Source of the DNA: Acidimicrobiales bacterium
GTDB taxonomy: Bacteria > Actinomycetota > Acidimicrobiia > Acidimicrobiales > Palsa-688
Length of the DNA stretch: 64,000 nt
Direction of reading: 5' to 3'
Assembly: GCA_035533095.1 (NCBI GenBank)
Contig: DATLUM010000106.1
Span: forward strand, 62,001 to 126,000
Shown in pieces: positions 32,895 through 35,346 of the stretch. The notes under the pieces were generated by a model, which saw only the letters and a list, made by a program, of their open reading frames with translations, was not told the origin of the DNA and made no database searches. A program made the position numbers and the translations under genes. The first letter of the stretch is position 1, and every line of letters starts with the position of its first letter.

Positions 32895-33428
32895 CTAGCT
32901 TGCCTTTCCGGTGAGACGCAGGCGAGGGGGCGCCTGGCGGTCGAGCTTGGGCAGCGCCACACGGCCGGTGCGCTGCAGTTCTGTGATCCCGTAGGGTCGC
33001 ATGAGTTCCTCGAAGTCGTCGAGTCTGTCAGGCTCGCCGGCGAGCATCACGGTGAGGGCGTCCGGCCCGACGTCGACGATCCTGCCCTCGAACACGCCGA
33101 CGAGCTCGATGACCGAGCTGCGCTGGTCGGACCCCGCCGCGAGCGTGGCCATGAGCAGTTCACGCTCGACCGCTTCCGAGGGGTGGAGCTCCGTGATCTT
33201 CACGACGTTGACGAGCTTGAACAGCTGCTTGGTGATCTGCTCGACGGAGGTCTCCTCCACGTCGATGACGATGTTGATGCGGCTGAAGCGTTCGTCGTCC
33301 GAGGGGGCGACGGCGAGCGAGATGATGTTGAAGCCACGGCGTGCGAACAGCCCGCTGACACGGGCGAGCACGCCGGACCTGTTCTCGACGAGCACAGAGA
33401 GGGTCTGGTGGGTGGGGCTGACTGCCAT
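32895..33428 (-). CDS. ilvN: Acetolactate synthase, small (regulatory) subunit
   Basis: The valine-sensing partner of IlvB. Seen: 177 residues; N-terminal ACT domain ([23 protein letters not shown] is the family start; key residues Asn16, Gly19) and a C-terminal ALS-ss domain ([16 protein letters not shown]...[10 protein letters not shown]). The ATG at 33428 shares its A with the ilvB TAA stop (TAATG), so the subunits are translationally coupled. The larger frame that contains it is antisense or out of frame with ilvB and is rejected. Confidence 0.95.
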
Positions 33429-35164
33429 TACTGGACCACTCTTTCTCCGCCTGGCTTCTGGGACGGGTGCACGACGAGGTCGTCGTTGGAGAACCCTGCG
33501 GGCACCATGGGGAAGACCTTCTCCCTGGAGTCGGTGCGGAAGTCGATGACGACCGGGCGGTCGTCGATCGAGTTCGCCTTCTCGATCACAGGCTGGACCT
33601 CCTCCGGCGACTCGACGCGGAATGCGGCGCAGCCCATCGCCTCGGCCCACTTGACGTAGTCCGGCAGGTCCGGCGAGAGGTACACCTCGCTGTAGCGCTC
33701 CTCGTAGAACATCTCCTGCCACTGGCGGACCATCCCCAGATACGCGTTGTTGAGGATGGCCACCTTGACGGGGATCCTCTCGCTCGCGGCGGTGACGAGC
33801 TCCTGCGCGGTCATCTGGAAGCATCCGTCGCCGTCGACCGCCCACACGGTGCGGTCCGGGCGGCCGACCTTCGCGCCGATTGCGGCCGGGACGGAGAAGC
33901 CCATGGTCCCCAGCCCGCCCGAGTTGACCCACGTGTAGGGCTCGGTGAACCGCCAGTACTGGCTGGCCCACATCTGGTGCTGGCCGACACCGGAGACGAG
34001 GATCGTGCCTTCCGGAGCGCAGTCGCGTAGTTGCTCCATGACGTACTGCGGCTTCAGGGCGTCCCCGGGCACGTGGGGGTCGTAGTACAACGGGAAACGT
34101 TCCTGCCAACCCGAGATCCGGCTGCGCCATTCCTCGCGGTCGGCCTGGTCCCGACCCTCCAGGGCCCGCACGATTTCGGTTATGACCTGCCTGCAGTCCC
34201 CCACGATCGGAACATCGGGCCTGCGGATCTTGCCGAGCTCCGCCGGGTCGATGTCGACGTGCACGACCTTGGCTTCGGGGGCGAAAGACGTCACCTTGCC
34301 GGTCACCCGGTCGTCGAAGCGCGTGCCGAGAGCTATCAGCAGGTCCGACTTCTGCATCGCGGTGACGGCCGTGTAGTTGCCGTGCATACCGGGCATGCCG
34401 AGGCACAGCGGATGGTCGTCGGGGAACGCACCGCGGGCCATGAGCGTCGTGACCACGGGGATGCCGGTCCGCTCGGCCAGCTCGCGCAACGCACCGGCCG
34501 CTCGGGACCTCAGGATCCCCCCGCCGGCGTAGATGACGGGCCGCCGGGACTCGCTGATCAGGCGGGCGGCCTCCTTGATCATCTTCGGGTGACCCTTCAG
34601 CGTGGGTTTGTATCCCGGCAGGGAAGCCGCGAGGTCCTCGTCGCTGGGCCAGTGCCAGGTGATGTCCGCCTGGAGGACGTCTTTGGGGACGTCGAGCAGA
34701 ACGGGGCCGGGTCGGCCGGTGGTGGCCAGGTGGAACGCCTGGCGCACCATGAGCGGGATCTCGTCGGGGTCCATGATCAGCTCGTTGTGCTTGGTGACCG
34801 AGCGGGTGATCCCGACGGTGTCGCACTCCTGAAAGCCGTCCGTCCCGATGACCGGCCGGCTCACCTGCCCGGTGATGGCGACCATCGGGACCGAGTCCAT
34901 GTAGGCGTCGCAGAGCGGGGTGACCAGGTTGGTCGCAGCCGGGCCGCTGGTCACCATGGCCACGCCGGGGCGGCCCGTGACGTGGGCGTAACCCTCGGCC
35001 ATGTGACCGGCCCCCTGCTCGTGACGGACCAGGATGTGGCGGATCGGCGAGTCCAGGATCGGGTCGTAGGCAGGGAGGATGCAGCCGCCAGGCAGCCCGA
35101 ATACGACCTCGACCTGTTCCATCTCGAGGCTCTTGATCAGGGCTTGTGCTCCGGTCATCTTCAT
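33428..35164 (-). CDS. ilvB: Acetolactate synthase, large (catalytic) subunit
   Basis: This thiamine-diphosphate enzyme condenses two pyruvates (or pyruvate and 2-ketobutyrate), the first step of branched-chain amino-acid synthesis. Seen: 578 residues from ATG 35164; [13 protein letters not shown] with [14 protein letters not shown] (catalytic Glu), [13 protein letters not shown], and the ThDP/Mg motif beginning [13 protein letters not shown] and ending [10 protein letters not shown]. The true start lies 60 bases after a terminator-like hairpin and a short leader peptide, so expression is probably attenuated by branched-chain aminoacyl-tRNA levels. Confidence 0.95.
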
Positions 35165-35223
35165 GGGGTTTCTCCGTGTATCGGGCTCTTGGCGGCGGGT
35201 TGCGTTCGGTTCCGGAAAATGAA

Positions 35224-35247
35224 ACGACCTCCCGTCTGGGAGGTCGT
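35224..35247 (-). terminator. ilvB attenuator terminator hairpin
   Basis: Ten-base perfect stem ACGACCTCCC / GGGAGGTCGT (35224-35233, 35238-35247) with loop GTCT. In the minus-strand transcript it is followed by UUCAUUUUCC, a U-rich tail. It lies between the leader peptide and ilvB, the classic position of an attenuator. Confidence 0.85.
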
Positions 35248-35250
35248 CAA

Positions 35251-35274
35251 CGCACACGCAGGTTTGCGTGTGCG
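35251..35274 (-). promoter_or_regulatory. ilvB leader hairpin upstream of the attenuator
   Basis: Perfect 10-base stem CGCACACGCA / TGCGTGTGCG (35251-35260, 35265-35274) with a 4-base loop. It starts immediately after the leader peptide stop in the transcript. It would act as the pause or 1:2 structure. I could not see by eye a strong alternative (antiterminator) pairing with the terminator arm. Confidence 0.75.
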
Positions 35275-35310
35275 TCAGGTGATGAGTACGAGAACGAGCT
35301 TGTTGCTCAC
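35275..35310 (-). CDS. ilv leader peptide, [11 protein letters not shown]
   Basis: An 11-codon reading frame with GTG start (35310) and TGA stop (35275-35277). Codons 5-10 are Leu-Val-Leu-Val-Leu-Ile, the three end products of the ilvBNC pathway and nothing else. It is followed by two hairpins and ilvB. This is what ribosome-mediated attenuation requires: a ribosome stalled for Leu/Val/Ile tRNA would change the downstream fold. No Shine-Dalgarno is visible, and the predicted transcription start falls at the GTG, so it is probably leaderless. Too short for normal gene callers. Confidence 0.85.
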
Positions 35311-35317
35311 GCCGCCA

Positions 35318-35346
35318 AGTGTCGCACAGCCGACCGGAGGGTGCAA
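35318..35346 (-). promoter_or_regulatory. Predicted ilvB leader promoter
   Basis: On the minus strand, TTGCAC (35346-35341), a 17-base spacer and GACACT (35323-35318). The next 7 bases lead to the leader GTG at 35310, so the transcript would start at or within a base of it. The -10 match is modest (3 of 6). Confidence 0.45.

Follow-up and report, generated by a model that had tools for sequence, protein, structure and literature searches.

A predicted leaderless leader peptide and two abutting hairpins upstream of ilvB in Acidimicrobiia: a probable ribosome-mediated attenuator

The ilvB gene of this Acidimicrobiales bacterium is preceded by an element that is probably a ribosome-mediated transcription attenuator with a leaderless leader peptide. 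In it, a first hairpin (H1) would antagonise the terminator hairpin (H2). We give the attenuator reading a probability of about 0.72. It draws on the parts themselves, their class-wide conservation, the covariation in H1 and H2, the leaderless geometry and the match between leader codons and downstream genes, all found by sequence comparison. In fold calculations, the position of the ribosome switches H1 and not H2. We infer that H1 would in turn lead to readthrough.

Since 2005, the ilvB leaders of Actinobacteria have been described as attenuators that lack some of their parts (PMC1262725). A literature search found no paper joining Acidimicrobiia with attenuator and leader peptide. What appears to be new is a near-universal ilvB element in Acidimicrobiia, with putative codon-matched sister elements before leuA, leuB-ilvE-cimA and cimA. 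New as well are a rare-GUA signature and a constant abutting H1-H2 geometry without a base-paired antiterminator. Over 100 natural variants, along with two sister families, reveal the constants: a predicted leaderless start, a rare-codon sensor beside the stop, a stop-codon hairpin and an adjoining terminator. This variant set makes the working of an antiterminator-free attenuator directly testable. The outcome is an annotated, putative branched-chain amino acid (BCAA) regulon for a class whose members are largely uncultured.

The ilvB leader region and its conservation

The element lies on the minus strand of the window, the whole 64-kb stretch of DNA that was analysed (Table 1). An earlier, sequence-only reading had described promoter-like boxes TTGCAC and GACACT, 17 nt apart, and an 11-codon frame with six consecutive Leu/Val/Ile codons. 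Both are present. The frame reads GTG AGC AAC AAG CTC GTT CTC GTA CTC ATC ACC TGA, that is, 11 sense codons and a stop (a 12-codon switch). The same reading had proposed a 10-bp hairpin after the stop and a 10-bp terminator 60 bases before ilvB. The two hairpins exist, but their dimensions had to be corrected. H1 has 12 bp and starts inside the stop codon; 10 bp are extended by A-U and G-U pairs with the G and A of the UGA. H2, followed by its U-rich tail, has a stem of 11 bp and ends 58 nt before the ATG of ilvB. There are 0 unpaired nucleotides between H1 and H2.

The IlvB protein scores above the cut-off for NF005860 (901 bits) and TIGR00118 (767 bits) in the profile search. Its nearest named relatives are Acidimicrobiales/Acidimicrobiaceae bins, with an identity of up to 89%, in keeping with a metagenome-assembled genome from the Acidimicrobiales. 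Judging from the list of open reading frames, ilvN and ilvC appear to lie downstream of ilvB on the same strand.

Table 1. Coordinates of the ilvB leader element in the window and of two sister elements in the same genome
Feature	Position	Strand	Basis or remark
-35 element TTGCAC	35341..35346	-	Sequence; TTGC motif regained in relatives by the start-codon-blind search
-10 box GACACT	35323-35318	-	Sequence; spacer to -35 of 17 nt; ends 7 nt before GTG
Extended -10 element TGC-GACACT	35318..35326	-	Sequence; TGnCA(C/T/G)A(C/A)T counterpart in relatives
Predicted transcription start	35310	-	Inferred; at leader start codon or within 1-2 nt
Leader peptide, GTG start, TGA stop	35275..35310	-	Sequence; conserved in 106/120 relatives
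Sensor codons CTC GTT CTC GTA CTC ATC (codons 5-10)	35281..35298	-	L/I/V run and GUA bias in relatives
H1 hairpin, ribosome-controlled by calculation	35249..35276	-	Fold; paired changes in relatives
H2 intrinsic terminator hairpin	35223..35248	-	Terminator and fold predictions; paired changes in relatives
U-rich tail TCATTTTCC	35214..35222	-	Sequence
Shine-Dalgarno-like GGAGA of ilvB	35171..35175	-	Sequence
ilvB, acetolactate synthase large subunit, 578 aa, first operon gene	33428..35164	-	Profile matches
Sister attenuator (putative) before leuB (L168), leader VKRPAPSCSIVIIV and stop	C59:15678-15759	-	Window's own genome
Sister attenuator (putative) before leuA (L173 / L208), leader VTAQPKLLTAGLLLLM and stop	C11:4152-4236	+	Window's own genome

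The two-hairpin fold of the leader RNA has an energy of -47 kcal/mol, compared with -26 +/- 3.5 in shuffled sequences. This is 6 standard deviations lower, and none of the 200 shuffles reached so low a folding energy. Likewise, when the intergenic region was dinucleotide-shuffled 3000 times, no GTG/ATG frame 7-20 codons long with six successive L/I/V codons arose. When the whole window was scanned for such a frame combined with two hairpins and a T-run, the ilvB leader was the sole match. A leader of the ilvB type was also looked for at ilvD, within the window, and none was found. The Rfam covariance models gave no relevant match to the element up to E = 5.

We collected 120 distinct ilvB upstream regions from 60 family/order genomes and 80 named loci. 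An ORF with a run of Leu/Val/Ile codons near its stop is present in 106 of them. The run ends 0-2 codons ahead of the stop, and the commonest C-termini are LVVIT, LVLIT and LVVLT, each directly followed by the stop codon. Among the 14 regions without a called leader, several are truncated contigs or borderline cases, such as MSVRRSLVAIT. In the relatives, a hairpin like GCGCACGC...GCGTGCGC is always present 3' of the leader stop, and beyond it comes a terminator like CGACCTCCC-N4-GGGAGGTCG-TTTT. In nearly all members, H1 starts in the stop codon or at most one base past it.

Both hairpins covary. In an alignment of 50 sequences, 13 of 20 pairs are altered on both sides (8/10 in H1, 5/10 in H2), and the covariation score is higher than in any of 500 column shuffles or any slid control. 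RNAalifold, applied to the MAFFT alignment, recovered H2 alone; it missed H1 because the length of the H1 loop varies. A count of pairs on the given structure lends support to the two hairpins. The comparison across relatives that the sequence-only reading had proposed thus finds the branched-chain codons conserved and H1 and H2 covarying. Its central claim, a leader-peptide attenuator element before ilvB, is borne out by the parts, by their conservation and by the shuffles.

A covariance model of the element matches 124 of 149 Acidimicrobiia genomes (84 of 99 genera) and 85 of the 396 genomes sampled phylum-wide. Weak matches outside ilv genes (L204, L200, L187, L205, L201) have no fitting leader, and we rejected them as chance. 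L204 and L178, from the same phylum, show a GC-rich hairpin pair without an amino-acid-run leader and are probably ordinary terminators. At least one of these two weak matches precedes an isocitrate lyase-like gene (at L204, an isocitrate lyase-like ORF).

Start of the leader transcript

The promoter search used expectation-maximisation seeded with generic sigma-70 boxes and was blind to the start codon. On the 106 leaders it converged on TTGC(A/C/G) and TGnCA(C/T/G)A(C/A)T. In 98 of them, a distance of 5-9 nt separates the end of the -10 box from the first in-frame start codon. It is 5-8 nt in 84/106, while random sites give 11%. The promoter model was not trained on the leaders of leuA and leuB; it sets the -10 box at 6-10 nt in most of both. 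Shine-Dalgarno matches of merely 1-2 nt precede 84 of the 106 leaders. Ahead of the ilvB genes, such matches have at least 4 nt in 64 of 79 cases.

The prediction that the leader transcript is leaderless, starting at or within 1-2 nt of the GTG, is well supported by this geometry. Leader translation very probably begins at the 5' end of the RNA, as the sequence-only reading had predicted. Alternatively, transcription could begin farther upstream and the leader could be translated from an ordinary 5' UTR. The leader promoter is itself a prediction, and a generic sigma-70 scan did not call it. The scan missed it because the -10 box is CACACT-like and not TATAAT-like, and the comparative data back the promoter despite this miss. 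A motif found blindly at a fixed distance, in the ilvB leaders and in the majority of those of leuA and leuB, argues against an upstream start. The near absence of Shine-Dalgarno complementarity before the leaders does so as well. We regard this alternative as very unlikely.

The -10 box of these leaders is unusual throughout the class. With C as its first base, as in CACACT or CAGACT, it sits behind an extended TG and departs from TANNNT.

Sensor codons and sister elements

The codon GUA makes up 64% of the Val codons in the leaders, compared with 1.4% in the ilvB genes of the same organisms. This is an enrichment of about 45-fold.

Other matches of the covariance model in the same order lie upstream of leuA, leuB and cimA. 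The control runs of the leuA leaders consist of L112 V5 I2, and those of the leuB (leuB-ilvE-cimA) leaders of I45 V37 L2. Stand-alone cimA genes, which encode citramalate synthase of the isoleucine pathway, have leaders with Ile runs, for example MSASIIIIA and AIIII. Such leaders with two abutting hairpins were found at L192, L195 and L198 within the class, and at L181 and L186 in the phylum.

The window's own genome contains two of these elements. In the leader before leuB, the control run has Ile and Val codons exclusively, and cimA lies downstream of leuB on the same strand. In one relative, a branched-chain aminotransferase-like ORF was recognised by eye after leuB. The leader before leuA has four consecutive Leu codons; its model match is only E 0.019, and the family is clear in relatives. 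The codon content of the leader thus tracks the product of the downstream gene over four gene types (ilvB, leuA, leuB-ilvE-cimA and cimA). Among the comparative data, this match argues most strongly that the leaders are read as sensors.

Ribosome position, hairpin antagonism and known systems

The fold was calculated for three footprint sizes and for these ribosome states: no ribosome, a stall on the first control codon, a stall on the last one, and a ribosome at the stop. With a footprint of 12 nt, the mean P(H1) in the ilvB homologues is 0.96 when the A-site is on the first L/I/V codon and 0.01 at the stop. P(H2) is 0.96-0.97 in every ribosome state. The leuA and leuB families give the same pattern. 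By geometry, across the homologues, the 5' arm of H1 would lie under a ribosome at the stop but not under a stalled one. The gap between H1 and H2 is 0-6 nt, and 0-1 nt in 63 of 104 cases. Outside the order it is 0-1 nt in 15/17 and zero in 12/17.

The element combines a leader ORF rich in end-product codons, an intrinsic terminator before ilvB and, by calculation, a fold that depends on ribosome position. The sequence-only reading had called the attenuator complete and had proposed folding the region for an antiterminator alternative. Folding revealed none in base-pairing terms. More precisely, no base-paired antiterminator appears in the 106 homologues or the two sister families in any ribosome state, within a model that leaves pseudoknots and kinetics aside. 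In the same sense, the element lacks the terminator-exclusive antiterminator helix of the classical trp/his type (1:2 / 2:3 / 3:4). Since H2 stays at about 0.97 in all states, thermodynamics alone would predict that termination always occurs.

We propose the following mechanism. RNA polymerase would start at or within 1-2 nt of the GTG, and a 70S ribosome would start at the 5' end of the RNA. If charged Leu-, Val- or Ile-tRNA is scarce, the ribosome would halt on the CUC/GUA/AUC run. Its front edge would then stop short of the stop codon, and H1 could fold. If these tRNAs are plentiful, the ribosome would reach the UGA, cover the 5' arm of H1 and block it. H2 alone would then form, and transcription would end before ilvB. 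Because H1 and H2 share no bases and abut, we suggest that the effect would be steric or coaxial, with a rigid H1 right at the base of H2 hindering closure of the terminator inside the RNA exit channel. Taken alone, this step is tentative, with somewhat less than an even chance of being right. The loss of the leader start codon in C. glutamicum lowered expression (PMC11857589), which counts against it; a purely steric H1 should give readthrough without translation, the opposite result.

A hidden antiterminator helix could instead pair with one arm of H2 upon stalling, as in a classical trp/his-type attenuator. This mechanism is known in enterobacteria. Models invoke it for C. glutamicum and for Corynebacterium ilvB-II, and it has been stated for M. 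tuberculosis ilvB1 as well. However, as long as the 3' arm of H2 has not yet emerged, the probability that its 5' arm pairs elsewhere is only 0.17-0.23 with a stalled ribosome and 0.32-0.34 with one at the stop. If anything, a stalled ribosome leaves this arm freer. The direction is wrong for an antiterminator, likewise in the leuA and leuB sisters, and the 106 homologues share no conserved pairing partner, pseudoknots and co-transcriptional kinetics being outside the model. We consider a hidden helix unlikely.

The leader peptide might also not be a sensor at all. H1 would then be a mere pause or mRNA-stabilising hairpin, and H2 would end a fixed fraction of transcripts. The equal stability of H2 across ribosome states fits this view. 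So does the lack of effect of altered candidate regulatory ilvB codons in S. coelicolor, as cited in PMC1262725, which counts against the proposed attenuator. Nevertheless, leader codons that track the gene product over four gene types, and the choice of the rare Val codon GUA, are unexpected of a leader that senses nothing. Such a role is quite unlikely. In favour of the same regulatory logic as in the proposed attenuator, changing the LVVI codons of M. tuberculosis ilvB1 to Ala abolished induction (PMC13236596).

The attenuator of M. tuberculosis ilvB1 has a BCAA-rich uORF and a terminator upstream of the gene, and a ribosome at the stop favours termination (PMC13236596). According to its published description, GUA is among the control codons there too. 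Its terminator and antiterminator are mutually exclusive, whereas the hairpins described here share no bases. A leaderless ilv leader, which the sequence-only reading had presented as new, was already published. In S. lividans, the transcript of ilvL before ilvBHC is leaderless by RNA-seq, and hairpins and a U-rich tract follow, in the same phylum and before the same gene (PMC8079986). In that leader, MRTRILVLGKRVG, the control codons lie five residues before the stop; here the distance is 0-2 codons. Likewise, in C. glutamicum a single nucleotide separates the start of the ilvBNC transcript from the start codon of the leader (Morbach 2000, as cited in PMC11857589).

C. glutamicum ilvBNC and Corynebacterium ilvB-II also have two stem-loops, the second being the terminator (PMC11857589, PMC10272879). 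In ilvB-II, the uORF spans the first stem (P1), and the P1 loop pairs with part of the terminator (P2a) as antiterminator. The present element does not fit that motif: its H1 starts at the stop codon, and the H1 loop does not pair with H2. Candidate ilvB leader peptides with terminators were predicted in Corynebacterium, Mycobacterium and Streptomyces by Seliverstov in 2005, with the mode of regulation left open (PMC1262725). The ilvB element resembles those candidates. On the other hand, leuA in that study has a pseudoknot LEU element without a terminator, and leuA of Acidimicrobiia has H1 and H2 as in ilvB. Mycobacterial Cys-rich uORFs are also leaderless short ORFs that sense an amino acid (Canestrari 2020, as cited in PMC13236596). 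In that citing account, they differ in sensing cysteine and in acting by translation attenuation, with no intrinsic termination.

A broader reading is conceivable, although we would not yet favour it. There may be a phylum-wide attenuator class in which a ribosome-controlled hairpin lies directly against the terminator and, through stacking or a steric clash in the polymerase exit channel, blocks it with no shared base pairs. In Acidimicrobiia, this class would comprise a four-operon BCAA regulon (ilvB, leuA, leuB-ilvE-cimA and cimA), all leaderless.

The core of the terminator stem in H2, CCUCCC-N4-GGGAGG, is conserved in sequence throughout the class beyond what pairing requires. It resembles an anti-Shine-Dalgarno/Shine-Dalgarno pair.
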